From the NCBI GenBank assembly GCA_036244855.1, contig BQKZ01000487.1:67688-97699 (forward strand): a stretch of DNA of 30,012 nt, given 5' to 3'. Source of the DNA: Temnopleurus reevesii (taxonomy: Eukaryota; Echinodermata; Echinoidea; Temnopleuroida; Temnopleuridae). The position numbers and the translations under genes were made by a program. Shown here in pieces: positions 1,649 through 26,650 of this stretch (position 1 is its first letter; every line of letters starts with the position of its first letter). The notes beneath the pieces are model-generated. The model was not told where the DNA came from and ran no database searches. It saw nothing but the letters and a program-made list of their open reading frames with translations.

Positions 1649-1996
1649 AGACTAATGTTGGTATCCGTCTGATTGGTAGTGATGAGACTAATCCATTAGA
1701 GGGCCGTGTTGAAGTGTTCCTAGCAAACACATGGATGTCAATCTGCTCAGAGGACTGGACACTGAGAGAGGCATCAGTGGTCTGCCATCAGCTGGGCTTT
1801 GGTCCTGCTGTTATAAGAGCTCCAGGACTCATTAGACCTGGATCAGGTCTAAGCGCTGGACCAGCCCCAATGTTGATTACCAGTGTGAGCTGTAATGATA
1901 CTCGTATCAACCTTCTAGAGTGCAGCTATGTGATCCTTGAAGCACCGCAGATCGGATGCACTCCAGCTGAAGTCGTATGTCAACCTCAAGACATAA
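1649..1996 (+). CDS. SRCR module 1, single exon, divergent
   Basis: The acceptor TAG at 1646-1648 opens a phase-1 exon reading GIRLIGSDE..., then [14 protein letters not shown] and a last conserved Cys (VVC). Six cysteines are present, which is the group A SRCR pattern. The domain is divergent: the usual W-GTVCDD block is WMSICSEDW, and the NC-H-EDAGV motif before the last cysteine is replaced by IGCTPAEV. The expected donor after the last Cys is not a strong GTAAGT. The best in-phase donor is GTATGA at 1997, giving 348 nt and phase 1 out. It is the first recognisable exon in the window, and a leader exon must precede it. Confidence 0.82.
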
Positions 1997-4900
1997 GTAT
2001 GAACGCACCCAACTCTCTCCTAAGTCGTGTAACAGAAATTTGTGTGATTTGCCGTTAATGAAAGTGACCAATTAAGACATTTGTTGGATGCGCATTTTGT
2101 TCAATATAATGGCCTCTAACAAATTTAAAGTTCTCACTCAAATTAGCAATTAATCACAATCCTTTATGTTATTGGGCCTATATCATACTTATACGATTTG
2201 AGTGAAAATGTTGTGTATACATGTATGTACTGTGCATGAAGTGCATAGGTACTCATAGGTATTTGCATCATGCTTTATCTGTCTTTGCTCTGTCATAATG
2301 CAAAGCATTATGTGTATTGGGTTTTTCTTGAATTTATTCTTATGTTCTGTGATGCACTTATTTATTCACGATTCAAAGGCATTGAATATATTAAATATTA
2401 CCTTGGAAAAGGAATTTGATAAGGAAGGGCATGAATGTAAGTAGGTAATAGGAGCTATTATAGGCCTAGATACAAATAGATATACTGATTTCAATTAAAA
2501 ATTGAATATGATTATATATAACAATTGTAGATTGATAATGGATGGAATTGTGAGTCTGGTTGCAATCTACTTCTAAAATAGGGTAATAATCAACTGATTG
2601 ATTAAGGGCATCAGTGAAGAGTCAACATGAATGCTACACGATGATGACATTAGTCATAATGGTAGTGTTAATAATCATAATGATAATAATACCGATAGTA
2701 AATATCATCATGGTTTTATTTAATGCAGATATCCCATTAGGTATCCGTCTGGCTGGTGGGTCTAACGCATTGGAAGGGCGAGTTGAGGTGTACAGGAATG
2801 GTACATGGGGTACTGTTTGTGATGATTTATGGTCTCTAACCAGCGCTCGTGTCGCTTGTCGTCAGCTTGGTTACCCCGATGCCTTGGAAGCACCTGGAGC
2901 AGCGAGGTTTGGGGCTGGCACAGGACCTATTCACATGGATAACATCGCTTGTACTGGGACGGAAAGAACCCTCTTTGATTGCTCCTTCTCAGACACACAC
3001 AATTGTGGGCATAGTGAGGATGCTAGCGTGGTCTGCAGCCAAGAAGGTAATGCATACTTTCTTTTCCAACCTATCACCAGGGTGCCACCCAACTCTAGGC
3101 ACATCTTACACTCCATTGAGAGTATTCCAGCAGGGCACTTCTTGATCTTCAATGCTAATTGACCCCCCTATGATCACTTCCAAATTGTATCACTCATACA
3201 TGGGTAGAGTGCAGCACAATGTAGATGAATTTGTTTCTGAAGGAAATAGATGCCATGGGTGGATGTAAAACCAGAACCCCTGGTTGAAAGGTGAATGGCA
3301 GAACCACTACACCGCAACAGTTCTAAAAAGCCTAGATCCTTACATAATCATTTCTTATGAAATGGATCACTCTTTATGAACCTCGTTCTTAGAAAATTAA
3401 CAAATAGTTAGAAAGTTTGTTGCTGTTGACCCTTGGAGTTCTAAAACTCATTTTTTTTATATATTAGTTTAATAGACAAATGTATTTACTTCAACTTACA
3501 TCTTTAATATCTTTAATCCAATAATCCTCTTTATCCCAATGTATCTCACACACGAATATTTCTTCTATCCACCACAGAGCGGGGAGCGTTGATTCGTTTA
3601 GTCGATGGTCCATCTGAATATGCAGGTCGTGTTGAAGTGATTTACGACGGTGAATGGGGTACAGTGTGTGACGATTCCTGGGACATTACTGACGCTATGG
3701 TGGTGTGTAGCCAGCTAGGGTTTGGACCAGCAGAATCAGCTGTGTCCATGGCAGGGTTTGGTAGAGGAATAGGTCCGATTCATCTTGACGGCGTAGCATG
3801 CAGTGGGTCAGAGCAGACGCTACAGGCTTGTGGTCACAATGGTGTAGGGGTACATAACTGTAACCATGGAGAGGATGCAGGGGTTAGGTGCAGTGGTGAG
3901 TAATGGGGCCCATTGACAAACCTTTGACAAGTTACAAGTGACTTTAAAGATAGAATACTTCTTTTGCAGCCTAAAATTTGACTTTCCAAGATTGTTGTGT
4001 TATGTTGAAGAGTACTAAATTTTAGAACTTATCACCAATCAATTAAGCACAAAGATTGGTCATGATAGGCGCATTTATAGTTATTCCAATAATAATTCTA
4101 CTATTCGGGCCTCGAACTAATGGACCGTGCGTTCAAAATTCAAAACAGCCATTAACCCCTCGTTGACGAATAGCGCAAGAGTCTCTCTCGGTGCGTATTC
4201 CGCATGGTGTGGCAGCGTATTGAAGTGCGTACTGTATGTGCTCTTATGTTTTGTGGGTGTGTGTGGTACCGTAATACGCTAGGAGTATCGAGATACCGTT
4301 GGTGTCAAGATGATTATGATAGAATAGACTTTTATTTGAATTAAATATTATGGACTACATTCGACCAAAATACTTCATAGAGGTTATTGTTTTGGCATAT
4401 CTGAGGTACACAACAAGTTGTAAGCATAAACGTAATGTGTGCAAATGTAGTTTTCTACCTTTAAAGACTGGGTATGCCCACAAATATTTTTGTATTGATT
4501 AAAAGTAGAAAATGAGATGAACGGATCAAAAAAAAGTTTTGAAGCAAATTGGACAATAAATATGAAAGTTAAGAATATTTCCATTTTATAACTCAACAGT
4601 TGTTTGTTATGCAAATTTGTAACATTGTGTCACGTGATATGGCACAAAAACAAAAGTTTGTTCGTTGTTATATACTTGGGTAAAGATACATTTATTGATT
4701 CAACCATTTGAGGATTTTTTAGAAATAGACATTCATGGATTAAAACGGATTCTTAAAAACAATTAGTTATAATAAGTCTACTGACAGGAAGTGCATGAAA
4801 TATGTCATGGTGAATGCTGTAGAATAATTTATGAAAACCACCGTTTGATTTAAAAATTTAGTACAAAGTCATTTGATTTTACCACTATTTGACAGTACTA

Positions 4901-7900
4901 GTGAATTCACAATATATTATTCTATTATTGTTACTTTTGATTTGATATCTTTGATCTGTTTTTTGTTGTTTCAGCTCCTGTGACATCACCATAGCCCCTG
5001 CTTCACGTTCGCTTACTTGATGGTGATTCGAGCCTGTCTGGTCGTGTTGAGGTGCTATGGAACAATGAATGGGGCACTGTGTGTGATGATGAATGGGGAT
5101 TGGAAGATGCCAGGGTAATAAGTCTTTCTCTTTATTATAAAAAAAATAGTAGTATTAGTATTATTTAGTTATTTGGCATATTCAAAACTTTTACAGTGTC
5201 AGTAAACGATGCACAGGTACAAAAATAGGCGGGTTTACTTATCTATTCAAATTGATGTGATTTTCTTGCCACTGAACGTAGTTACATGGTACTCCTTAAA
5301 CCGTTTGATAACAATAAGACTGCAATACTTGGAATCCAGTTTGCATACATTACTTGTTAATATGTCAGACAAGCCTCGAGCAAGCCTCGGGCAAGCCTTA
5401 GGGTTGTCAAGAACAACCTTTGTGTTAAAGGTATGCATAAAATGTGCATCTATTAGTAAACCTGCCTATTAGGCATGAGACAATCAGACCGAAAAGTGGC
5501 AATTACTGACATTGATGGATGCTAAAATGCTACGTCTTGTTTTGCTCATAATTTTAAACCTTTTACTAAAACATGAATCTCTTGAATCGTAGAAGCTCAT
5601 TGGTATCATATATTTCAATATGCAACCAGGGATCTGTGACATAAACCAATTTTTCGATTAATTGCAAAGTTTAGTACATGATTTGCCATAAACCTGCAAT
5701 TGATATAAATTGTGTCCTAGCCTTGAGAATGTGTAAGCCATGGCTGGCATACTTACCTTTCTCTGGGGGTGTTGTTCAAAAGTTGCGATTGATCGCAAAT
5801 CAATTGCAAATCAGTTGCAAATTGAAACAAGTATTTTCATTCTTGCATGATATGCAATTCTAGCAAAATGTGCATGAAACATTGATTGTGATTGGCCCGT
5901 TCTGATCAGCTGCAACTTTTCAACAACACCCCCTTAGATGAGATGTGCGCAAAGCTAAGTAACTGGTTAAGGCAAAAAGAATCACCTTCATGCCGCTTTA
6001 TACTGAATTCCATATATGCTTTCTGAGCACTAATCTATTTTTGCCCTATTTGGATTGTAAAATTATTTTTGTATTCTTACTCTTTTATACCTTCAGATAT
6101 TCTAAGATAAAAGATATTAAGAAGATCACACATATTTGAACATGGTTTTAAGATCATTTTGCAATGCATTGCAAAGATAAATCCTCCAGTCTTAAAAGTA
6201 GTGGTTTCACTCACAGATGAAACAGAAGTATTGAAATGTTATTCTAATAGGTCAATGTTGGATTTTAACCTTCATTTCTCATGTAAGTATGTCGGGAATA
6301 TTCTTGTGTGTTTACTAAATTCATAGAAAATGTGTTGCAGGAGACTTATGAAATGATGAGATTGTAGTACATCTTTGAATAAGACATCTGCCAATTATCC
6401 ATCAGCTCACGTTTATTTTATTTCATGTCTTCTACATAGGATTATTAGCACATAGCAATACAAGTAAAAAAAAAATTAAAAAGGGAGAAGAAGATGTGAA
6501 ACTAGATTCCAGTCCTGGCAAGTTACTGATGTGCATGTATGACTGGTGTTTTGTGTACAGGTCGTGTGCAGGGAACTAGGTTTTACTGATGTATGACCAG
6601 TGTTTTATGTACAGGTCGTGTGCAGGGAACTAGGTTTTACTGATGTATGACCGGTGTTTTATGTACAGGTCGTGTGCAGGGAACTAGGTTTTACTGATGT
6701 ATGACCGGTGTTTTATGTACAGGTCGTGTGCAGGGAACTAGGTTTTACTGATGTATAACCGGTGTTTTATGTACAGGTCGTGTGCAGGGAGCTAGGTTTT
6801 ACTGAAGCAGCGTCAGCGGAAAGAGGGGGCGTCTTCCCACAAGGCACAGGGAGTATCATACTGGATAATGTGCGTTGTGAGGGAAGTGAGCCGTCCTTAT
6901 TATTATGCCCTAACAATGGAATGAAAGTACATAACTGTGGACACTCGGAAGATGCTGGGGTCAGATGTACATCAGATGGTATGTGGAAGATTTTGACTTG
7001 AGATCACCAATTATCCTCAAACTAAATGAATTATTTCTTTTAAAATTCAGCATCAAAATTATATTCCAATGTATTTTATTGTGATGTGATTTTTCAACCT
7101 TTTGTTAATATTATATGGGGAAATTTGAGCCCCAAAATTTGTGCGTGAAATCATGTCATTTAAAAAAATTAGGGATTAATAAAGTAGATAACTTGAAGAT
7201 AATATCTAACATTTTTAACAACCAGTAAGTGTTTTTTTACTTAATCTATTACTATTCCCTTACTACTACTACTCATAATAGAAATGCACAATAGCACTTT
7301 AATACAAAATGTTTCTAAGCACTCTGTGAACTTTTACCAGCTAAAACAACGGTACCATTTGATGCTCACTGCATCAAATTTCTTCCTACTGGTACGCATT
7401 TGCCTCAACTGGGGTGAGTGAAGCACAATGTAGATACATTTTTTGCTGAAGGAAATTTCTGTCATGAGTAGGATTCAAGCCTACTACCCTCTGGTTGAAG
7501 ACGAGATTTATAACCACTACACTACAGCACATCTACAACATCCATCAACCAGGTTAAATGTACCTTATAAGTTTTTGATATTGCTTACAAAATCATGTTA
7601 CCTCTTTTATTTATGACAAAGGTTTTAGATAAGTCGTCTCAGGAAAAAACATTGATCTCGGCTTTTCTGCAAAATTGTGTACACCCATTCATTTGGCAAT
7701 CATATTCTTGATTAATCTAAATTGATAATCAGTGTTGTTTTATATATTGTACAGGTCTTGAATAATTCCTCTTGTTTTAGTGTATAGAAATGTTGTAAAT
7801 GATAGATATTGTGTTGTAAATGATGTGTAATCCTTTGACCCCACAGTACCCCCTGAAGGCACATGGGTGCGCCTTGTCGACGGGGAGAACTCTGGTGAGG

Positions 7901-8228
7901 GGCGTGTAGAGGTGTACTCTAACAATGAATGGGGTACAGTCTGTGATGATTCATGGGATCTCAATGACGCTGGTGTCGTCTGTAGAGCTCTAGGATTCAA
8001 TGAAGCATCAGAGGCTCCGGGTGGTGGTCGGTTCGGTACAGCAGCCAGCTCAGTGCCAATCTATCTGGACAATCTAGGATGTTTAGGATCAGAGGAGACG
8101 CTCTTTGATTGCTCTCACGGAGGTCTGGGGGTTCATAACTGCATTCATAGAGAGGATGCAGGAGTTGTCTGCGGGTTTAACGGTGAGGAGTTTGGTGGTG
8201 ATGGTTCATGGTGATAATGATGATGATG

Positions 8229-8269
<41 letters not shown>

Positions 8270-11200
8270 TGATGATGATGGTAGTCATTGTGGTGGTGAT
8301 GATAATGATAATCACGATGGTGATTGTTATTGATGAGAATGATGATGATGATGGTGATGATAATGGCGATATGGTTATGATAATAATGGTAATGTGATTA
8401 TGATAATAGTGATGGTAAGGGAATTGATCTAGTGGTGATGATGGGGATAATCATAATGAGTAGGATGGTTTTGTAAGTATGTTCATGTTTGTGGATGATT
8501 TTAATGTTGGTGTTATTGGTGATGGTAATGATGATCATGATGATGTTTATGGGAATTACTGGGTATGATGTCGATTATAATGGAGATGTTAATGATGATG
8601 ATCATGATGTGATTGATGATGGTGGTGGTGGTGATGGTGACGATTATGATTTACTGATTTTAAGCATTTTGATATTGGTGCTGATGTAAGTGGAGATAAT
8701 TAATCTGATAGTGGTGTTTGTGGCATAATGGTTTGCTATTGTTGAGTATACACCTTTTTCTTTCTTTATTGTGTTCTGGTGTTTGAAACTTTTTGGCAAT
8801 AATAGTAATAATGATAACAAAAATAAACTTGTAAAGGTGACATTTATAAATGATTATGGTGATGAGAATTGCTTAATATGAAAGTATTTGGTGATTTAAA
8901 TGTTTAAAAGATACATCCTTTCCATTTATTTTGTCAGTGAATACAATGTCGAACATCCGGTTGGTAGGAACAGATAGCCCTTTCCGTGGTCGTGTTGAGG
9001 TTCATTACAACAGCCAATGGGGAACTGTGTGAGACGATGGCTGGGATCTTAATGATGCACAGGTCAGTTTTAGTTTTATGATGATAATAAGAATACATGC
9101 TCTATGTTTAGTGATGGATCCATTCTGCACTGTTATTATTACCCTGGATCTAGCCATAACCTTGCTGGTGCTCAAGTGTGTTCAAATGTATATGTATGAA
9201 TTTCATAACTCGCCAAGTCAGTTTTACTTAACTCTCTTCATTCCAGTGTATGTCTTTCCTTTTCATTTTCGTCTATATCTCTCTCGTCCCTTTGTCCCTA
9301 TACCCCACTCTTTCACCCTTTTTCTTCTGCTCTCTCTCTCCATCATCTTTTAGCCCACTCCTTCTTTCTCTCTTCGCCTCCCCCCCCCCTCTCTCTTTCA
9401 CTTCCCGTCCTCTGAACACCTCTTTCCTTTTGCTTTTTTTCCATTCTTTATCATAACAGTGGAATGTAAGAATGACTTACAAGATGTACTCATTATTTTG
9501 TGATCAATGCCACATCTTAGCCACATGTTTTTCAAAGCCCTTGTGTTAAATCAAAATATTAATTCTTAATTGTAAATATAAAATCAAGTTTTTAATGTAT
9601 AACACTAGAATTTGTGAGTGTTCAATTCTATTTCGCTGTTCAATCATTCATTTTTCATTATATGTATTCTTGTATATATATCTGCAATTCAGCCATTAGA
9701 CCGCGAAAGATATTGTGATTTTAAACCGTTTTGAATAAATGAATAAGTAAATAAATGAATTAATTGTCCACGTATTACCCATTCACCTAACCTGGGTTAA
9801 ATGCAGCACAGTGTTTATTAATTTTGTGATGAAGGAAACAGATATCACTGCTGGGATTTGATATTGCGGCCATTGGGTATAAAGGTGAGAGTCATAACCT
9901 CTCCACCACAATACATTTTAGGCTGCAAGATAACCTAAAATTTTAAGTATCAGTTTGTGTTTGTACTTCTTAAGAGCAGAGTAATTTTATTTTGATATTT
10001 ACCTGTGAGGTCTTTATCAAATAAAGCTCTCTGATATGTTTGTATACAAAAATAATAGATTCCATTTCTCATGCAATACTGTATAAACCAATATTTTGGC
10101 GCACAGATATTTTCGCGATTTCTGACCAGTTTGACACATTGGCGTGTTGTTATTTTCACGTTTTTGAAAGTGTTTGTACACAAATGAATGCGCATCATAT
10201 AGAGTGAAAATTTTTGCGAGGCCATAACCGCGAAATTAGTGAAAATAAAACCACCGTGAAAATAAAACCACCGCGAAAATTTCAGCTTATACGGTAGTCA
10301 AAATTGAGTTTTTTATTTTAAATTTAATTATCTATTTTACTCTACCCCACCTGATGAAATAGAAAAGTAACAATTTGATCTCATGACGAATGTTGTACTT
10401 GAACACTTAAAGCAACACATCAAAGCAATCAGAAACAAGTTTTAAGTTGGAAGAGCATTTATCAATAGAGTATTTATAAGTTCTTGATCAAAGGAAATAT
10501 TACATGGTCATGTAATAATGAGAAAGGATTTCAAAGACGATTGTGCTTTTTTCCAGTATTGGATCTTTTAAATTCATGTTTTATCATGTATAATAGTACT
10601 TTGCGTGTTCATTCAATTTTCTTGCATCTTTGAATAATAAATTTTTTTTTATTTAATATGTTTTTTTAATTTAAATTCATATATATTTCTTTGTAGTATA
10701 CATTTGAAGATTTATTTAGTATAGGACCCCATTGTAATTTGGCGCATTTGAGTTTTCATGGGTTAATCCTGTCAAGATTTTTGATATTGCTTTACATTGC
10801 TCATATATTGTATTTCTTTCTTGAGAAATAAAGCAAATAAAAACTGTTGATGCGCAGGTTGTATGCAGACAGCTTGGTTACAGCAATGCTGTTGACTACG
10901 TCTCCTCAGCTCAGTTTGGGCGTGGCACTGGTAGCATCTTACTGGATGATGTAGCATGTACTGGAACTGAAGAGACTCTCTTAGGATGCACAAATCGTGG
11001 CGTTGGTAGTCATAACTGTGGACATTCTGAGGATGCGGGTGTTATCTGTATGCCAGAGCGTAAGTCACTTACACAAATCAGTTATCTTCCTCAGTCATAG
11101 GTTTTGTGACTTTTATCAAGATATCATTCTTGATCATATTTTGATGTGGCACAATTGAGGAGTAAGGCCTTGGTGTGTTTAGGCTTTAAAATGATACTGT

Positions 11201-14200
11201 GTCAATGTAATTAATCAGTATGATATTTTTCGTGCAGTCACATTTATCTTTTATTTTATTATAATAGTAATGATAATAATAATTAGATAATATATCTCAC
11301 TTCATGGATATACTTCACTGTGCTATAAGTGAATTTCGACAAGTTTAAAAAAAAACCAAAAAAAAAGACCGATATGATCTTTATTTCTATTGGAAATCTA
11401 TTCCAGAGATTTGGAGCAGCACAGTTGAAGGCGCAGTCGCCAAGTGTTACTTTTGTAGATGTGATAGTTTTAGAATCAGTTTGTCCTGTCTTCTTCGCAA
11501 ATTGTTTGAATGTTTTTTTTAATTAAAGGATACTAGTTGAGACAAGTATCAGGGGCCTGACCATTCAGTGCCTTGTAGGTGAGCAACAAATGGACAAATT
11601 TACTGTCACACATAGTATATTGCTGATAAAATAGTAATGATGAGAAAGATACACAAGAATGATTAAATGGATATTTACATGTACATTGTGTTGTTTCTAA
11701 AAGCAATAATATCCTGTTTCCTAACTCTTTATTTGTTTTAAATCTTGCTATTGTATAGTTCGCCTCGTGAACGGTTCCCACCCTCAGGAGGGGCGTGTTG
11801 AGATCATGATAGGAGGGGTCTGGGGGACTGTCTGTAACGAGGGATGGGACATACGAGATGCACACACTGTATGTAGTCATCTAGGCTTTGGCGTAGCTGA
11901 TAACTCATCAGCTAGTCTAGGAGGGGCATACTTCGGGCCTGGTGTTGGTCCTGTGCACCTGTCTGGGGTGGATTGTAGCTCTCATAGTGCTTATCTCTTT
12001 GAGTGTGCTGCAATACTCTCCATGGGTATTGATCCATCTTGTGATCATTCAAGGGATGTCAGTGTTATCTGTACACAAAGATGTAAGTAGGCCATTCTCG
12101 GCTTTCTCATTATTAACATTAGGCTGAAATGAAGAAAAAAAATATTGTACGTTTGTTGTTACTTTTGCATGTATGCGCCATTCAAAATCATTGGCCCATG
12201 TGTGTCTTCGTGGAATTGTATCTCAAAAGCCAATTAGAACTTTCATTTCAATTTGAAATTATTGTAATTACAGTTTATTTGCAATGGAGTGCAATATCCA
12301 TTCAAGACCGGAATAAGCCTTATAAAGTTTAAGAGAGCAAAACGCTTTTACAGGGTCCCCACCCAAAATAGTGAACCTGGAAAACGATTTTCACTTTTTA
12401 CATTCCTAGAAAAAATTGCAACATTATTTATTTGGTAATTGGAAGTGCATCAGAATAGGTTGGATAGTGTGAATAACATTGACAAAGTAATAATGAAATT
12501 TTAGAAATTCATAAGGGAAATTCAGAGAATTTTGTTCTCCTCAAATACTACTTGCTGTATTGTTTCTTTCTTTCAGCGATTCCAGAGCAGCATGTACGTT
12601 TGGTTGGTGGTCCCACCCCATTCAAGGGTCGTGTTGAGGTGTTCATGGAGAACAGCTGGGGAACCATTTGTGATGATCTATGGGATGTAAGTGATGCCTC
12701 AGTCTTCTGTCGTCAGCTTGGCTATGGAGGCGCATCAGAGGCGCCGCGATACGCACAGTTAGGTCGCGGCTACGGAGCCATTCATTTAGACGATGTCCAG
12801 TGTGTCGGTAATGAGACGGACATCATGGATTGTCCAAGGTCAACTACAGAGACTTCCTGTACTCATCGAGAGGATGCTGGCGCTACCTGTATTCCACAAG
12901 GTAATACTTGGTTTATAGGGGTTTGACTTTAAATGGGATCTTTTCTCAGTTTTTGCAATTGAATATTACCTGATTTTAAGAGGGTGGACGCTCAAACTCA
13001 AACACATTGCCGCAGGGGCTTTCTGAGGCATATCAGTCTGTTTCTAAATTCCTTTGCCAGCTAAAGTAATTATCAGGCAGATATCTCCTTCAGTCGAGGT
13101 TGATGTTACGTAATATGTGCCAAGCTGGTAAAGGCAACAAGTGGCTAGTCTCAACGAGTAGACCATGGTTTTGCTTTTAGAATGCTTCCATGTATATTGC
13201 AGTATGCTTTGATGTTGTGTGAATTATAAAAGGCTTCTTAGAGGCTACAACTGGGAAAGATATACGAATCCGGAGCATCGGACTCAGTGAACGTTCGTCT
13301 TTTCCGAACATTTATCACTGGGCTTGCCGTTTGTTGAGATTGTGTAGACGTGAATAAGAATTCCTAAAATTCCTTTCGATTACCTCACCACATAATGTGT
13401 CAGCAACATGTACCTTTAAAAGGCCATTTTACAAGATGTTACAAAAGTAAAGAAAAAATAATGGCATTTTTGCTTTAAAGGTAAATTCTTTTGCTCTCCA
13501 AGGGTGCTTGTATAAATTTTCATTTATGCACCTAAAATACATGTTGCATGAATATAGACTTGCTTTGGCTAAATGCCAGTTGGACTTTTGTAAGCTGATT
13601 AATTTCTTCTGATAAGTTTCTTAGAACTTCAAAATAAAGCATGGAATCATAGAAATAGCCTTTACCCTCAATTTATGTGTTTATTTGTTAGCCGTTCGTC
13701 ATTCATATCGACAGTTATTTGACTTTAATAAGTTAGACTTAGCCAGAGTTGATTGTGCATTTCATATTTCAAGGATGTTTTTCTACTATTGCAGTGAGAC
13801 TGATTGGAGGGAGCAATATCTACAAAGGTCGTGTTGAGATCCAAATAGACAATCAATGGTTGGGTTTCTGTGGTGACGGATGGTCTCTATCCAATGCTCG
13901 TGTGGTTTGTAGCCAGCTCAAGCTAGGTCTGGTAGCACAAGCACCAACTGGTTATATGTTTGGTGAGCCTGAAGGTGGAATCTACTACCATCGTCCGACG
14001 TGTGGAGGCTACGAGAGATCACTTGGTATCTGCTTCATGGAGCCTCATGAGAACTGTACAGGAGGATACGCTGGGGCTGTCTGCTCTCTGCCAGGTGACT
14101 TCATTCATTCTATAGTCTTGTCACTTTTGTCTTGACTTTGTTTTACAGGAAATAGATTAGTTTGAAAAATAAAACATTCTGTTGGTGCTACCATGGTTCA

Positions 14201-17200
14201 TGCATGTCGGTATCAATTTGGGTTCAAGTGTCAAATGTATGATCTTGTCAAAATAAAATGGGTCATTTGGATTACTAACCTCTCAGAAGAGAAGATTTTG
14301 TCCTTTTCATTGTAACATCTGATGAGCTTTTAGTGACAAAATTTCTATGGAAAGAATACACATTTTATTTATTACAATTTTTCTCTTTTTTGTAGCATAA
14401 ATTGAATGTTGCTCTGGTCATAGTTCTGATAGTGTTAAACATTCAGTCATAGTTTTGAGGGCATAAATAGATAGGCCCTACATATTGTTATTAATGTACA
14501 TAACTAAAGAACTGGCCAGAAGCAGAATGGCATAGTGACAGACTGTTTTTCGATCAAATATTGCAAATGATTTTTGCTAGCAAATATTGCATATGCTTTT
14601 TCCTGACTAATGCATAATTGAACATCTCTGTGCATGATACTATTTGATCTACAGAGGAGGGAACTGAGATCCGACTGGCTGGTGGAGGGAACCCCTACGA
14701 GGGGCGTGTAGAGGTCGGCCTGGGGGGCATCTGGGGTACAATCTGCTCCAACAGCTGGGAAAAGACCGATGCCAACGTGATCTGCCGCCAGCTCGGCTAC
14801 GCTACGGCGACGGCGGCCATCCAGGAGACGTCTCGCTACGGCATGGGGACCGGTCCTATCTACCTAGATAATGTTGGCTGCACTGGCCTGGAAGCTAACA
14901 TTGCTCTCTGTCCTAGCAGTGGAGTGGAGAATCATAACTGCAGTCATAAGAATGATGCTGGAATCATCTGCTCTCCACCAAGCAAGTTTGATGATTTTAC
15001 AACCAATCATTTCAAATTTTAAAAAGATGATCATTACCACATTATGCTTGAGATTAAAGAGTCTAAGAAATATTTTCAAATTGTTTGGAATATCTGCTCT
15101 TTTTGATAGTTTTAAAAATAGTTCTGAATGATTGCTGATAATATTTATTTAGATTGATACTCATTATCCATACATGCATGTGAGATTCTATGCATTTCAA
15201 ACAGAATTTCTGCATTTTCTAGCGAGATCCCTGATTCCAGTAGTGGACAAGTTAATACATTGTTGAGTGATATATGTTCAGTTGTACTATAGATCATCTA
15301 TACATCACATTAATTTCCTGCAGAATCTTCACTATGGGGTTTTATTAAGGTTCCTATTAGATATGAACATCTTTACCACTAACTACTGTAGTACACCTTT
15401 TTAAAGGGATCATTAGTTTTCAGCAGCAGTCACATCAATCCAATGGGTGACTTCAAGTACGTTGTTTGGTGTTGGTGTTGGTGTTGAGAGAGCAAAACGG
15501 GTCCGTAAACCGAGCTCCAACACCGTTGGTCAGTTTACAGAAGTGATACAGAAACGACCGGAAATACGTCAGAATCTTGCGAGGTCTACCCCAAACACTG
15601 ACAGACTTCAAGTTTGGTGTTGAGGCTGGTGTTGGTTTTGCTGCAACACCAACACCAGCGTTCAACACCGTACTTGAAGTCACCCAATGTGAAGGGAGAG
15701 GTCCATATCTATTCCAGATATGACTGCATATCTTGTTTCCTTTTGCAACTTTTTTGTATTCTTTACATTAATGAATTCTGTATATCATCATTTCTTTTTT
15801 TTTTTTTAAAGGGACAATTGAGTTCTGCAGCATTTGAATACAATGTTCATATCTACTGAAGATTATATTGAGATAATATTGAGTTTTTTGTAGGATTCTA
15901 CACAAAAATTGCACAAAAATACACATTACATATAATAATAACTTATTTTCAACCGAACTTTGTAATTACAGTTAATTTTGTGAGGAATGGTTTGATTTCA
16001 GCCATATTGGGGTAATGCTTTGTTAACGAGAACTTCATATCTACTCTGGGTTGCCTGTAAATCTTATCAATTTTCTGTTGGAACGGGGTTTATTAAAGTA
16101 CTGAGTAAATACTCTGCCCAATCACTGAATTCTGTTATTACTGGTTTTAACACCAGACAGGTTGATTTAGTCATTGTAGTGAATAATGTTGAATAATGTT
16201 TTCACATCTACTTTAGATTATGCTTAGATCCTATCATGTTGAGATGCGTGGGAAATATATCTCTAATTGTTTTAGGTGGAAAGCATACAATGGTTACGTT
16301 GAACTATCCTTATTGTTTTGGATGTTGATATCTTTTGTCTCTTAGTTTGTCTTGTAGGAAGCAGAAACCCATACAAGGGTCATATGGATGTGTACATAGG
16401 AGCATGGGGAACTGTCGTATAATAATTTTGGATGTTGTTATCTTAGTTTGTCTTGTACGGGAAAGCATTCTTAATCCTAATCCTTATTGTTTTGTATATT
16501 TTCATCTCTTAATAGTTCGTCTTGTAGGGGGCATCAGTCCATACAATGGTCNNNNNNNNNNNNNNNNNNNNNNNNNNNNNNNNNNNNNNNNNNNNNNNNN
16601 NNNNNNNNNNNNNNNNNNNNNNNNNNNNNNNNNNNNNNNNNNNNNNNNNNNNNNNNNNNNNNNNNNNNNNNNNNNNNNNNNNNNNNNNNNNNNNNNNNNN
16701 NNNNNNNNNNNNNNNNNNNNNNNNNNNNNNNNNNNNNNNNNNNNNNNNNNNNNNNNNNNNNNNNNNNNNNNNNNNNNNNNNNNNNNNNNNNNNNNNNNNN
16801 NNNNNNNNNNNNNNNNNNNNNNNGTAGGTGGTAGCAGTCCATACAATGGTCGTGTAGAGGTGTACAAGGGAGCCTGGGGAACTGATCTCTTATTGTTTTG
16901 TATATTTTCATCTCTCAGTTCGTCTGGTAGGTGGTAGCAGTCCATACAATGGTCGTGTAGAGGTGTACAAGGGAGCTTGGGGTACTGTGTGTGATGATGG
17001 ATGGGACATCCAAGATGCTAAGGTAGTGTGTAGCATGCTAGGGTTTGGACCAGCTCGGAGGATCATCGCTACGGCAGGAATGCGTCAGACGTACAGCACC
17101 ATCTACATGGATGAGGTTGGTTGCCTTGGTAACGAGTCGTCCATCTTTAACTGCCCTCACAGTCCCGTTCATGATTGTACGCACGCTGAGGATGCCGGTG

Positions 17201-20200
17201 TGGAATGCTGGGAAAGAGGTTAGTATTCATGAGTGTGTACATAAATTGGAGTGTACTATGTAATAGTAGTAATTGTACGAATAATGATAATGACAACTCT
17301 TCTTTCTGTTATTAAGATGTTTTTGTTGTGTGAAATAGTTCAGTATTTCATCTTACTGTATCATTTCTCTTGTGACAAAATTAACTCCATTGTTCATATT
17401 TGCCTTATGAATTGTTATCCTCTTGCAATTATAATTGTTATATGATACTTTATGAATTACTTAGTTTCTTACAACATGAAAATCCCCAAGAATAATCGTG
17501 AAATCTTGTACTGAAGTATATGCCCAAAGAAACTCTAAATGAATAAGATTAAAAGCATTAGCCAAGAAGCCAAACATTCTTATACAAATTGAACTCTCAA
17601 TGGAAGGAACTCGCTTTGGTCTTTCTTTCTATGGATTAAACCTGAAACAACGTCTCTCCTGCATTATTTTGCATCATTATCTACTTTATGTACCATCTCA
17701 TTTTGTCTAGACTTGTTATGTGAACTTCCAAGAATCTCTCGCTGGGCTTACATCAGCGTCACCCAGGTGAATTACGAGCAAGGAGAGGGTCTGGATATCA
17801 GCTGCATTGATGGATCTGCATCAGTGACCCTCATCTGTGGGCCAGGAGGGGTGTGGAATGGACCCCCTATAACATGCCTACCACCTGATGTTCAAGAAAG
17901 TAAGTCATTACAAGGACATAGTGGGAGTGTTGTGGGCCAGGAGGGGAGTGTTGTGGGCCAGGAGGGGTGTGGAATGGACCCCCTATAACATGCCTACCAC
18001 CTGATGTTCAAGAAAGTAAGTCATTACAAGGACATAGTGGGGGTGTTGTGGGCCAGGAGGGGTGTGGAATGGACCCCCTATAACATGCCTACCACCTGAT
18101 GTTCAAGAAAGTAAGTCATTACAGGGGCATAGTGGGAGTGCTGTGGGTCAGGAGGGGAGTGTTGTGGGCTAGGAGGGGTGTGGAATGGATCCCCTATAAC
18201 ATGCCTACCACATGATGTTCAAGAAAGTAAGTCATTACATGGGCATAGTGGGAGTGTTGTGGGTCAGGAGGGGTGTGGAATTGGCCTCCTATAACATGCC
18301 TACCACCTGCTGTTCAAGAAAGTAAGTCATTACAGGGGCATAGTGGGAGTGTTGTGGGCCAGGAGGGGTGTGGAGTGGGCTAGGAGGGGAGTGGGATGGA
18401 CCCCCTATAACATGCCTACCACCTGATGTTCAAGAAAGTAAGTCATTACAGGGGCATAGTGGGAGTGCTGTGGGTCAGGAGGGGTGTGGAATGGACCCCC
18501 TATAACATGGCTACCACCTGCTGTTCAAGGGAGTAGGTCATTACAGGGGCATAGTGGGAGTGGTGTGGGTCAGGAGGGGAGTGTTGTGGGTCAGGAGGGG
18601 TGTGTTGTGGGCCAGGAGGGGAGCGTTGTGGGCCAGGAGGGGTGTGGAATGGACCCCCTATAACATGCCTACCACCCGATGTTCGATTTAAAGCTGTTAG
18701 TACTGTATATGGTAGTTATTACTGAAAAGGAACCAATGTCAAGAAAAGATGAGGGTTTTTCCTTTCATGTCTTGTAATAAGTTCATTCAAACATTTAAAA
18801 TGTACCTTACATTTGATCAATGTACCTTACATTTGATCAATCATACTTTCCATATTTTGATCTGACAAGTTAGTACCTTACATGTCACTAATGAGCTGCC
18901 GAACAGGATTTTATCCTATTTGATAGCATTTTTCAGTGAAATCAGGACACCTAAATAACAAATAAAGGCCACCGCACACTACACGATTTTTAGTCTTAAG
19001 ACCTTAAGACCGGGGTTATGAAGTCACCATTTAACTGGTCGGAGGCAAAACATCCGACCTTAAGACCGAGGTCTTAAGGTTTTAGCATGTTGAATCTTTT
19101 TGAGGTCTCATGCGACCTCAGCAGCCCCATCACACTGGCACAGCCTCCCACCCCACACACAACAGCATCACTCGAAAATTGCTCATTAAAACGATGATGT
19201 TTTGTTATTCAATGATAAATTCATTATCATTAGCTGAAATCATGAATGTATTTTTTTTTAATTTTCGATGACTCTGTCAAATATGACAAATTACGAAGAA
19301 AAATCCAAGATTTAACGTTGAAATTCCGACTTATCGCGCTGCATGTTGCGATGGGAAACGAGCGCGTAACTTTTGAGCTATCGATTATTAATGTTAAGAT
19401 ATCGGTATCGGCTGTTCAGTCTTACGGTCTTTGGTCGCGTAGTGTGCGATGTCAGGTCGTTAAGTCTGGTCGCAAGGTCTTAAGGTCGTACGACTAAAAG
19501 TTGTGTAGTGTGCGGTGGCCTTTAGTCCACAAAGAATTAAATTCCTTTATTCATATTTCATGTCTAAAAATTTATCAAGCATGGCAGACAAGAAAGCAGA
19601 TGCTGTTAGAAGTAATTCTATTGATCACATTGCTTCTTTCCAGAGCAATATTAAATGACATTTAATTATTTTTGCTATCTTTTTTATATTATTTATAATA
19701 TTATCATTGAATGATTTTCCATCTCTTTCCAGAAGCCGTGTGCTCGTTGCCAGCGCCACCACTAAACGCAGTGTTTAATACAGTGAAGACAGTATTCCAA
19801 CCATCAGAGAGTCTTGTGGTGTACTGTGATGATGGAAGACCTATCTCTCAGACCTCAGTCGTCTGGGAGTGCAAGCAAGATGGAACATGGTTTATGAAAA
19901 ATATCAATTGTGCTCAAAATAGTAAGTCAATTTTCATCTCCCATCAAATGAAAGAATTTTGATCTTAATACATATTGATGAATGTAAACTATTAAATGGC
20001 TGACTCATCATTCAAGCTTTTTTTTTCCAGTGTTCATTTAATGGTCACATTGTATTGTTCACTTTCCATATCTCTTCGGGCACGAAACAACCTGATGCCT
20101 ACACATCTGTTTTTATGCCATAATACTTATTGTTACCGTTATGAGGTATTTCAAGTTAGCTTTTGCAAATTCAATATCACCCACAGTCTTCCTATTCGAG

Positions 20201-23040: not shown

Positions 23041-23768
23041 ATGTGACGTTTTACTTTTGTTGTGCATTTTTATGGATAACTTATGCAAATTTACCTCATT
23101 TTCTCTTGGCCAATTTACTAATTGTCTAGTTTCTGTAGTGGAATGAGGTTGATTTTAACTCCTACCAAATGGCATGTGCATAAAAATGTTTGTTGAAAAA
23201 GCTTTTCCACTTCAAAACACATTATTATTGTTGTGTTTAGATTGCCTTTTATTTCAGTAGCTATAAAAAAAAAAAAAAAAATGCATATGCAATTCTCATT
23301 GAGATTTCCATATGTATATGCTTTCAGATACCAACTCGAAGTTCACACGTTCAATTTTATGTGTTTATATAAACCTGTAAGACTCTAAATCCATAGTCTT
23401 GTCAGGATTAGACATGTTCTTTTTGTGTTTACAGTTTGGAATAAGTACTAAGGGTATATGTATATGTATGGGCCGTGGATATAGGTTATGTACAATTAGA
23501 AAAGTGAAAACAGAGTAATGTAAAGCATTGATAAGTTTATTGTCTGTATAATGATCACAGGTCAGCATATTAAGCATTGTCTTTGATTGAAAACCCACCC
23601 CGAGACTGGGAATCAAATGAGGAACAGTAGCAAGAGACAAGTTGAGCTGGCTTAATTAGTCACTGGCCCTTTGACTATATCAAACAAGTTGAATGGGGAT
23701 ATCTCATTTTAACATGTATTTCCCGTAGTAGTGTGATCTTATAAAGATAGTCTGATGTTAGACCCATT
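23041..23768. other. Downstream region, no gene seen
   Basis: AT-rich, with a poly-A run near 23265-23282. It may still belong to a longer 3' UTR. The minus ORF at 23365-23640 has no recognisable domain. Confidence 0.5.
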
Positions 23769-24080
23769 GGCCCGTATTCCGATAGCGAGGTTTAAGTTAA
23801 CCCTGGTCTAAATCTGTGGTTTAAGTATGGGTAGCCAAAAGTGCCAACACTTTATTAACAATGTATAATTCTTATGTTAATTGCTCTCTTTTACCATGCT
23901 CTAATAATGTAGGAAACTATTGAAGTTTTTATTCCGAGACAGTTTTATATACTACGAGTGCCAAATGTGCTGGTAAATTAAACATCGACTGTTATAGATT
24001 CAAGCCTCTTTTGGCTCTCCATACTTAAACCACAGATTTAGACCAGTGTTAACTTAAACTTCGCTATCAGAGTACGGCCC
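23769..24080. mobile_element. Long-arm inverted-repeat element
   Basis: About 75-bp terminal arms match almost throughout: GCGAGGTTTAAGTTAAC, TGGTCTAAATCTGTGG and TTTAAGTATGG on the left, with reverse complements on the right. ATT flanks both sides (23766-23768 and 24081-24083). The loop is AT-rich and non-coding. This is a MITE-like foldback element with a 3-bp target duplication. Confidence 0.85.
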
Positions 24081-25170
24081 ATTGTCTGAGACCCCCCTTT
24101 CATTTTAATCGACTTCAGGTTTAGGTAGAAGAGGTGGAGTGATGAATAATATTACATATACCTGAAGAGCAATGTCGAATTACTGAGGAAACAATTTCAA
24201 ATTAAATGTAATGTCATAGACATGTCAGGCTGTAGTTGAGTAGGGAATGTATTTTGTCCTTTGTCAATTATTTGTGTTTAGAAATTATGACCAAAAGCTA
24301 TAATAATTGGGATTATTGCATTTTGATATTTTTGGCTGAGATACCCATTTTCTCCAAAATTTGGTGTGTATTTAAAGACATCATGATTCTTAAATCTTTC
24401 TGAAATATAAAAATAGATAGTAGTTCCATAGTTTCACGCTGTTACATATATAGTTAAAAAGAAGTACTCAAATTTGACCACTTCCTTTCATGTCAAGATT
24501 TTGCTAGACTTGTTTGTATTTCCATAACAGTTTTTGTACAGTCCTCTTTTGTCATTGTCTAAAATAATGTACCATTATTTCCTTTTTCTAACTAATTTAT
24601 CAATATGCTAAAGTCCGAGTTGTATTTGTCTATGGATGTGAGGTAAATTGGTACTATTTTCTATGGTACGTTAATCCCTGTAGGAACAGAGCCCTTACAT
24701 TGATAATGTATAGAAAACAGGTAAAAGTACTATTTATAACAGAACTGAAGTTCATTGTTATATATTTTTCTTTAGTGTGTTTAGTATATTGCATTGAAAA
24801 TAAACAATACATAAGACAATTCAGATAAGAATAATATCTGAATAATTGCTGTACATTATAGATTTAAATATGTCTTAGAAGTGAATTCTCCTTACACGTC
24901 CACTTGTTTCCATTAAATATGATCATTCCTACTTAATCTTCATCTCTTTACAGTTGAGATGTAAGACTCTGTTCTCACTCGGGACAAGTATTTTATAAAA
25001 TATTTAGAATAGAAAATGTTACATGTTACATGTTTTACTCTTGGTGAGACATTCCATTGATGACATTCCAGCCATTAAATAATAAATTAATGGGAATATT
25101 TTGATATGGCCTCTTTGTTTCTTAAATGCTGAAATGGTGAGTCTTTATTATTTGGAGTTGACAGAATGCA
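24081..25170. other. Intergenic, no gene seen
   Basis: AT-rich sequence with several AATAAA motifs. I see no coding region and no recognised repeat. Confidence 0.55.
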
Positions 25171-25260: not shown

Positions 25261-25285
25261 TGAAGTGAGGAGTTTGTGTGCTTGA

Positions 25286-26650
25286 AGAAAATGTTGGTGT
25301 GTGTGAAATAAATGTTAGTGTATGTGAAACAGGTGTATGTTTGTCTGAATTAAGAAGGTACATGTTTGTCTGAAGAAGGTGTTAATATATTTGAAGCAGG
25401 AATATATGCGTCCGAGGTAGAGTTGTGTATCTGAAATAAGTGTTAGTGTTTTTTAAGCAAGTGTTAGTGTATCTAAAGCAGGTAATAGTGTATCTAAAGC
25501 AGGTAATAGTGTATCTAAAGCAGGTAATAGTGTATCTAAAGCAGGTAATAGTGTATCTAAAGCAAGTGTTAATGTGTCCCTTGTAGGTATTAGTGTGTCT
25601 GAAGGAGGTGTTACTGTGTCTGAATCTTGTGTTAGCTAGTGTACATGAACAAAGTGTTAGCGTGTCTGCATGGTGTCTGTGTGTTTGAAGCAAGTGTTAG
25701 TGTATCTGAAACAAGTTATAGGGTGTTTTAAGAAAGTGGTATTGTTTTTAAGCAAGTGTTAGGGTGTTTGAAGCAAGTGTTAGGGTGTTTTTAAGCAAGT
25801 TATAGGGTGTTTTAAGAAAGTGTTATTGTTTTTAAGCAAGTGTTGGGGTGTTTGAAGCAAGTGTTAGGGTGTTTTAAGCACATTATAGGGTGTTTTAAGA
25901 AAGTGTTATTGTTTTTAAGCAAGTGTTAGGGTGTCTTTAAGCAAGTTATAGGGTGTTTTAAGAATGTATTATTGTTTTTAAGCAAGTGTTAGGGTGTCTG
26001 AAGCAAATGTTAGGGTGTTTTAAGCAAGTATTAGGGTGTTTTAAGAAAGTATTTGAAGCAAGTGTTAGTGTATCTGAAGCAAGTGTTGGGTGTTTTTAAG
26101 CAAGTTATAGGGTGTTTTAAGAAAGTGTTATTGTTTTTAAGCAAGTGTTAGTGTTTTTAAGCAAGTGTAAGGGTGTCTGAAGCAAATGTTAGGATGTTTT
26201 AAGCAAGTATTGGGGTGTTTTGAGAAAGTGTTAGTGTTCAATAAGCAAGTGTTAGTGTGTCTGAAGAAAGTGTTGGTGTGTCTGAAGCAGGTGTTAGTGT
26301 GTCTGATGAAGGTGTTAGTGTGTCTGTGAAGCACGTTTTAGTGGGTCTGAAGTACGTGTTATTGTGTCTGATTAAGGTGTCAATGTGTCTGAAGCAAGTG
26401 TTTTTAGGGTGCTTTTAAGTATTAGGGTGTTTTAAGAAAGTGAAATTGTTTTTAAGCAAGAGTGTTATGGTGTCTGAAGCAGGTGTTAGTGTGTTTGAAG
26501 AAAGTGTAATTAGTGTGTTTGAAAAAAGTGTTAGTGTGTCGGAAGTGTCAGCGTGTTTGGAGCAAATGTTTGTGTGTCTGAAGTACGTGTTATAGTGTGT
26601 CTGAAACGGGTGTAAGTGTATCTAAAGGAGATGTTGGTGTCTCTCGTTCA
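25286..26650. repeat. 20-21-bp minisatellite, about 1.4 kb
   Basis: Degenerate repeats of GTGTTAGTGTGTCTGAAGCA dominate. A homogeneous block at about 25475-25560 has four to five copies of a 21-bp form (AGGTAATAGTGTATCTAAAG C). A middle part (about 25720-26230) alternates with TTTTAAGCAAGT and TTTTAAGAAAGT variants, suggesting larger repeat units. ORFs on the minus strand with 7-residue periodicity are a by-product of the 21-bp period. Confidence 0.92.

Follow-up and report, generated by a model that had tools for sequence, protein, structure and literature searches.

Three tandem repeats at exon borders of an SRCR receptor gene

The stretch analyzed here, a window of 30,012 nucleotides from the sea urchin Temnopleurus reevesii (contig BQKZ01000487.1, positions 67,688 to 97,699 of the forward strand), carries on its plus strand a predicted receptor gene, whose 17-exon model contains 11 SRCR domains, two sushi exons, a transmembrane exon and a cytoplasmic tail exon. 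Three tandem repeat arrays lie at exon borders of this gene: array 1 at the acceptor of exon E4b, array 2 at the acceptor of E11 and array 3 at the donor of E12 (Table 1). The initial annotation had described all three as repeats that span an exon-intron border and hold a splice site together with coding sequence. Arrays 1 and 3 were recovered as such by Tandem Repeats Finder (TRF), whereas array 2 is interrupted by a gap and received no call when TRF was run over the window. Repeats of this kind have been named mirages in amphioxus (PMC3087553, PMC3902484).

Array 1 was called by TRF at 6535-6805 as a 54-bp unit present 5.0 times with 97% matches. In each unit, 27 bp of intron end with TACAG as the acceptor precede 27 bp from the start of the exon, and the string CAG/GTCGTGTGCAGGGA, followed by A or G and then CTAGG, is present in all five units (here and below a slash marks the splice border). 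The units agree with one another at 49-54 of 54 positions; copies 3 and 4 do not differ at all, and divergence is greatest at the ends of the array, where the copies match the others at 49-52 of 54. The 7-mer TTACTGA occurs at 6523 in the intron and again at 6799 in the exon, where the breakpoints of a founding mispairing would be expected. The array was found at a single place in the assembly of the same genome.

Array 3 was called at 17836-18604 with a higher-order unit of 211 bp, accompanied by overlapping rows of 116 and 95 bp, and the spacing of its copies alternates between 116 and 95 bp. Seven donor positions run from 17900 to 18533 and are followed by a final partial copy that lacks a donor. 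The intact donor and five copies read AAA/GTAAGT, and the seventh position is degraded to GGA/GTAGGT. Compared with the intact exon side, the exon sides of the copies show 0, 0, 3, 5, 3 and 5 differences in 62 positions, and the copies at the exon-proximal end are the most alike, unlike the mirage pattern of divergent ends. Mean pairwise divergence among the exon sides (0.069) is about equal to that among the intron sides (0.066), which leaves no sign of coding constraint on the copies.

In array 2, the unit of about 103 bp joins an intron end with its acceptor to about 67 bp of SRCR exon start, and the array is split by 272 N at 16552-16823. The copy just before the intact exon is nearly complete, with 59 of 64 bases matching, and the outer copies are older (88% over 69 bp and 74% over 117 bp), so that the array contains copies of several ages. 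Acceptor signals are mixed among these copies. In array 3, the graded divergence of the copies fits tandem turnover.

Nine SRCR domains of the gene are encoded by single exons, the pattern described for sea urchin SRCR domains (PMC10855680), and domains 4 and 6 are each split over two exons. All exon borders are in phase 1, save for phase 0 inside the two split domains and phase 2 before the last exon. The splice sites of the model are canonical except for one GC donor, and the exons other than two stop-bearing ones are open. The GC-type site, the donor of E10 at 14979-14987 (CAA/GCAAGT), is the sole non-GT donor in the model. A profile search recovered all 11 SRCR domains, a circular result in that the profile was made from the window's own domains. 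Pfam found SRCR in the stretches submitted, namely domains 1-3, 4 (joined) and 6, and two Sushi stretches on the joined C-terminal region. Among the best 120 of 3051 protein matches, DMBT1-like proteins dominated the full-length search and echinoderm proteins were the best match for 8 of the 11 SRCR domains (phyla were assigned to the matched protein names by us); no lancelet protein was among these 120, so lancelets were not compared. The region from the sushi exons through the transmembrane exon to the tail had no protein relative in searches covering 552 and 784 candidates. The 5' end of the gene was not found within the window and sits beyond the modeled part. Rfam and tRNA scans over the window returned no match.

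Table 1. Position of the gene, the three arrays and the exons discussed in the text (window coordinates)
Feature	Position	Strand	Basis and remarks
Host gene	1649..22815	+	17-exon model; profile matches; Pfam on parts of the model
E4a, 5' half of SRCR domain 4	4975..5114	+	Gene model; in-frame TAG at 4992-4994
Array 1, 54-bp unit x5, acceptor of E4b	6523..6806	+	TRF (6535-6805) plus copy alignment
E4b, 3' half of SRCR domain 4	6777..6978	+	Gene model; Pfam on joined domain; uses last, intact acceptor of array 1
E6a, 5' half of SRCR domain 6	8938..9062	+	Gene model; in-frame TGA at 9030-9032
Array 2, ~103-bp unit, acceptor of E11	16346..16990	+	Copy alignment; absent from TRF calls
E11, SRCR domain 11, open	16919..17218	+	Gene model, profile match; uses last acceptor of array 2
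E12, first sushi exon, open	17711..17899	+	Gene model, Pfam Sushi; donor is first donor of array 3
Array 3, 116/95-bp units (exon end, donor and intron), donor of E12	17836..18684	+	TRF plus copy alignment

Reading frames of the copies and of the gene

We computed the reading frames that would follow if the copies were used in splicing. In array 1, the four acceptors upstream of the intact one, at 6561, 6615, 6669 and 6723, all give one product when spliced from E4a, VVCRELGFTDV followed by a stop, and all six downstream donors of array 3 lead to one and the same tail of 29 residues and then a stop. In array 2, the copy adjoining the intact exon was the only one computed, its first eight letters, which fall in the N gap, being borrowed from the intact copy; its use would shift the frame and run into a stop. 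Pseudo-exons were also looked for in array 3, and no acceptor-like AG scoring above 2 was found within 17900-18700. Since the copies computed yield one truncated product per array, copy number leaves the product unchanged. The suggestion of the initial annotation that the copy number of splice sites is a source of isoform diversity was therefore not borne out by the computed uses (4 of 4 in array 1, 6 of 6 in array 3 and the one copy in array 2).

The gene itself has two in-frame nonsense codons, a TAG at 4992-4994 and a TGA at 9030-9032, each in the 5' half of a split SRCR domain; no other SRCR domain of the model is interrupted by an intron. Array 1 is located in domain 4, which already bears one of them. 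Rescue of E4a by another acceptor was considered, and no open alternative was found among the AGs in 4851-5105. When domains 4 and 6 are both left out, the frame is open over 1193 residues. The two nonsense codons, TAG 4992 and TGA 9030, are what one might see in a decaying pseudogene, in which the arrays would have been free to grow. We regard this explanation as possible but doubtful: the other exons are open, the phases are consistent, and the splice sites are canonical bar the one GC donor. Moreover, both stops fall in domains that could be skipped in frame, sequence errors or allelic variants may account for them, and one sea urchin SRCR gene is inferred to have lost an SRCR domain through a TAC to TAG stop mutation (PMC10855680).

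The intron of domain 6 is flanked by a near-identical direct repeat, at 9053-9064 (TGATGCACAG/GT) and at 10848-10859 (TGATGCGCAG/GT). The two ends match at 9 of 12 positions, a level reached by 0 of 240 non-cognate end pairs, and this arrangement resembles intron gain by AGGT duplication.

Border duplications in other SRCR genes

The assembly of the same genome (558 Mb) gave at least 150 SRCR matches (150 of 578 candidates scored). We sampled 20 stretches of 10 kb round strong SRCR matches, which together held 170,369 readable bases and 91 SRCR matches, and, as controls, seven stretches with sushi or trypsin exons, two families, with 66,687 readable bases and 27 usable matches of the 30 listed. 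Individual SRCR stretches are referred to by label (L018 to L028; coordinates in L024 and L025 are those of the reverse strand). L025 was found to have two donor-side duplications of about 80 bp, at donors 3471 and 6101, for which the sequence was read and the frames were checked, and L024 has an acceptor-side duplication of 161 bp at acceptor 7208. In L022 (7934-8809), three copies of the SRCR exon start lie upstream of acceptor 8721, with acceptors ending in TAG, AAG and TAA, one of them having lost its AG; this acceptor-side mirage appears to be an older one. Two decayed border duplications are present in L021. Use of the copies in L024, in L022 and at one L025 donor leads to an early stop (three of the four clear cases); in the remaining L025 case, 83 nt separate the donor from its copy, which comes before the stop, and splicing at the copy would give an out-of-frame extension, as read from the letters. 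The clear cases in L025 (two), L024 and L022 show that mirage-like repeats recur in SRCR genes of this genome. In a further stretch, L018 (7590-9061), two exons, each for half an SRCR domain, share an identical 90-bp edge at a distance of 1.29 kb, apparently a very recent exon duplication.

We then counted duplications relative to borders. Self-comparison of the 20 SRCR stretches gave 26 tandem-like duplication clusters, six of which lie across an inferred SRCR border where even placement predicts 5.93 (P 0.57), with two borders taken for each of the 91 matches and the borders of other exons not included. Two of the six, in L027 and L028, were rejected as clear mirages: the duplicated exon end in L027 holds stop codons and the cluster in L028 looks like a duplicated exon. 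The count was re-run with a looser BLAST cut-off, with clusters holding at least two SRCR matches dropped, under six parameter settings. The straddling clusters numbered 4 of 24 (5.18 expected), 4 of 22 (4.57), 3 of 15 (2.47), 3 of 17 (2.66), 3 of 10 (1.36) and 4 of 20 (3.70). With TRF only, 2 of 24 arrays in the 20 stretches straddle a border against 2.20 expected, an undercount in which domain ends were used as borders. We also looked for local matches spanning SRCR edges in the window and the 20 stretches. Such a match was seen at 48 of 204 edges, of which 35 were dropped because the target lay inside another SRCR match; 13 of 204 edges then compare with 146 of 1439 control positions, whereas without the drop the edges exceed the control. 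A few of the inferred SRCR edges are wrong, for example 6722 instead of 6777. Thus, a preference of duplications for junctions is not visible in the 20 SRCR stretches.

The control stretches gave two clusters, none of them straddling a border (0.30 expected), and none of their 54 edges had a spanning local match. Straddled borders did not differ between the samples, at 6 of 178 in the SRCR stretches and 0 of 54 in the controls (Fisher P 0.34), where 178 is the number of testable edges in the 20 stretches (204 less the 26 in the window). The density of clusters did differ: 26 in the 170,369 SRCR bases vs. 2 in the 66,687 control bases (one-sided conditional P 0.0067). SRCR stretches hence look richer in local duplications than sushi or trypsin stretches, a lead only, because stretches and controls were hand-picked from match lists. 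The initial annotation had proposed a recurring process in the SRCR family and a scan of SRCR genes for excess border repeats. The scan, run here in part (20 stretches and 7 controls), gave no junction excess, and of the proposed process the recurrence stood (L025 twice, L024 and L022) and the aiming at junctions did not (6 of 26 against 5.93, P 0.57).

Explanations and known systems

Taken together, we consider it probable that the three arrays are mirage-type minisatellites, that ordinary local duplication gave rise to them in an SRCR gene rich in duplications, and that splicing passes them over. A founding duplication could have occurred by mispairing at a short direct repeat, for which TTACTGA at both ends of array 1 is a candidate, and the array could then have grown by unequal exchange or slippage. 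Selection would keep the one border that leaves the exon readable, and each extra copy would therefore be stranded in the intron. Normal mRNA would be made from the intact border, as known mirages and the factor VII gene lead one to expect. Array 3 is expected to be the most harmless because its true donor comes first; in arrays 1 and 2 decoy acceptors precede the true one, so that more interference would be expected there.

Several observations weigh against this account. On a rough matrix of 15 sites, copies 2-4 of array 1 score 4.3-5.2 as acceptors vs. 3.8 for the true site, and five donor copies of array 3 equal the true donor, so that, judged by sequence, copies may be used. The position of the arrays is also unusual within this gene, which has 32 internal borders in 21,167 bp. 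A randomly placed unit straddles a border with a probability of 0.08 (54 bp), 0.155 (103 bp) or 0.143 (95 bp), values that become 0.095, 0.176 and 0.163 when purely exonic places are subtracted. Under such even non-exonic placement, the product for all three arrays is P 0.0027 (0.0012 with a 10-bp overhang), and at least three of six repeat families (units of at least 10 bp) straddling gives P 0.0078, all of these being post hoc values on one picked gene. The microsatellite at 8208, its internal 23-mer and repeats outside the gene were left out of the six families. Lastly, the smallest P over the six settings of the genome count, 0.13, came from the strictest one, with 3 of 10 clusters against 1.36 expected, so that a weak preference for borders is possible.

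Within the window, the automatic cluster count found 2 of 5 clusters straddling against 0.85 expected (P 0.20), a count that misses array 2 because of the N gap. Local duplications cover 3 of 33 borders, compared with 35 of the 363 positions taken in introns and 44 of the 190 taken outside the gene. Placement of whole array spans was rejected as a null model, under which border overlap has a probability of 0.38-0.75, and units were used instead, as only the terminal copy may hold the border. The initial annotation had also stressed that the copies lie on the intron side of each border. This position is as it stated; it carries no evidential value because only a terminal copy can adjoin an exon that stays readable, and the geometry forces it.

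Some further repeats of the window may be mentioned here. The long ATG microsatellite at 8208-8404 begins 25 bp past the donor of E5 and holds no copy of that donor. At 25272-26635, outside the modeled gene, a 21-bp minisatellite extends over more than 1 kb and forms the largest array of the window. Inverted-repeat pairs with arms of 35-77 nt occur at 15441-15689, 21550-22232, 5760-5938, 18963-19524 and 23765-24084; they look like miniature inverted-repeat transposable elements, and the arms of the first two pairs are alike.

If the copies were not passed over, they could compete with the true sites as decoys, and truncated or decayed transcripts would lower the amount of full-length receptor or yield a soluble form, which would end after the first sushi exon with the 29-residue tail. 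The strong identical donors of array 3, the acceptor copies of array 1 that are as good as the true one, and the early stop in every computed alternative use are consistent with such poison splicing. We nevertheless find it unlikely. In amphioxus, data on Adh3 and reverse transcription PCR (RT-PCR) on globins suggest that regular splicing is undisturbed at mirages (PMC3087553), and the human factor VII gene normally uses only the most upstream donor of its repeats (PMC6627357). Each array, moreover, gives one product regardless of copy number.

A mutational process that seeks junctions, for example breakage coupled to R-loops or to splicing, might instead have founded the border duplications, since all three large arrays of this gene straddle borders and the strictest setting gave 3 of 10 against 1.36 expected; we judge it improbable, as the other five settings gave 3-4 observed against 2.5-5.2 expected and the first count gave 6 of 26 against 5.93. 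The view of the initial annotation, a recurring family-level duplication of junctions in which splice-site copy number makes isoform diversity, is very improbable: border duplications do recur in other SRCR genes and SRCR stretches are denser in local duplications than the seven controls (one-sided P 0.0067), but the same-genome counts show no junction preference, no open-frame alternative was found in this gene, and three of four clear cases elsewhere stop early, the fourth being an 83-nt out-of-frame extension.

Ordinary local duplication, the reading we prefer, has a bolder extension that we put forward tentatively and think unlikely: the SRCR loci of this animal may be hot spots of local tandem duplication that repeatedly throw splice borders into mirages in many receptor genes, and the arrays, together with in-frame domain skipping, may form a standing pool of decoy sites that could give rise to new introns and to receptors in truncated or soluble form. 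If so, mirages would belong to expanded immune families of invertebrates in general, beyond lancelets. Should the higher duplication density of SRCR stretches prove true across the genome, SRCR genes would lend themselves to following how tandem duplication produces decoy splice sites and, occasionally, introns.

The initial annotation knew of no named system of this type. In fact, amphioxus mirages, minisatellite-like duplications over exon-intron borders, have been described in Adh3, the globins BflGb6 and BflGb9, PGBD5 and TnC (PMC3087553, PMC3902484), and the present arrays thereby gain a name, precedents and a null model; in the sister genes, their frequency is about what duplication density predicts. 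According to the accounts in these papers, the units measure 10-160 bp, occur at 5' and 3' borders and keep splice signals in many copies, the ends of the clusters escape homogenization, and mirages were proposed as a source of new introns (PMC3087553). Mirages are also expected to vary in length between haplotypes or cells. As in mirages, the tandem unit here spans the border and holds coding sequence, in array 2 only in part owing to the N gap; both border types are affected, acceptors in arrays 1 and 2 and a donor in array 3; and splice signals are kept in many but not all copies (5 of 5 in array 1, 6 of 7 strong in array 3, whose last copy has none). The inner copies of array 1 are homogenized and its ends are divergent, a pattern from which array 3 departs. 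Unlike the amphioxus cases, three arrays lie in one gene, compared with two in lancelet PGBD5, where repeats of 60 bp and 108 bp are found at splice sites (PMC3902484). Here the host is an SRCR receptor, and the arrays are known from DNA sequence alone. The mirages so named in PMC3087553 and PMC3902484 have cephalochordate hosts; 8 of the 11 SRCR domains here match echinoderm proteins best among the 120 listed.

Partial parallels exist elsewhere. Intron 7 of human factor VII has a variable number of 37-bp repeats at its donor (PMC6627357), and, as in array 3, the repeats hold the donor and the true donor is the most upstream one; that system, as described there, differs in having one array, on the donor side only, and effects on splicing were examined there in cell models in connection with a patient mutation. 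A potato RdRp gene acquired a new spliced intron, with RNA-seq support, through tandem duplication of a segment crossing an intron-exon border (PMC4974935). The duplicated segment there likewise comprises intron end, acceptor and exon start, but the arrays here have many copies and show no sign of a new intron. For Drosophila, too, tandem duplication is supported as a route to intron gain (PMC2891723). ATP2A1 and the 24-bp arrays of fission yeast, as cited in PMC4974935, carry tandem copies of splice signals in one gene, with units that are exonic rather than border-straddling as here. Border-spanning repeats are thus a known kind, and what is notable in T. reevesii is the presence of three in one gene together with further cases in sister SRCR genes.

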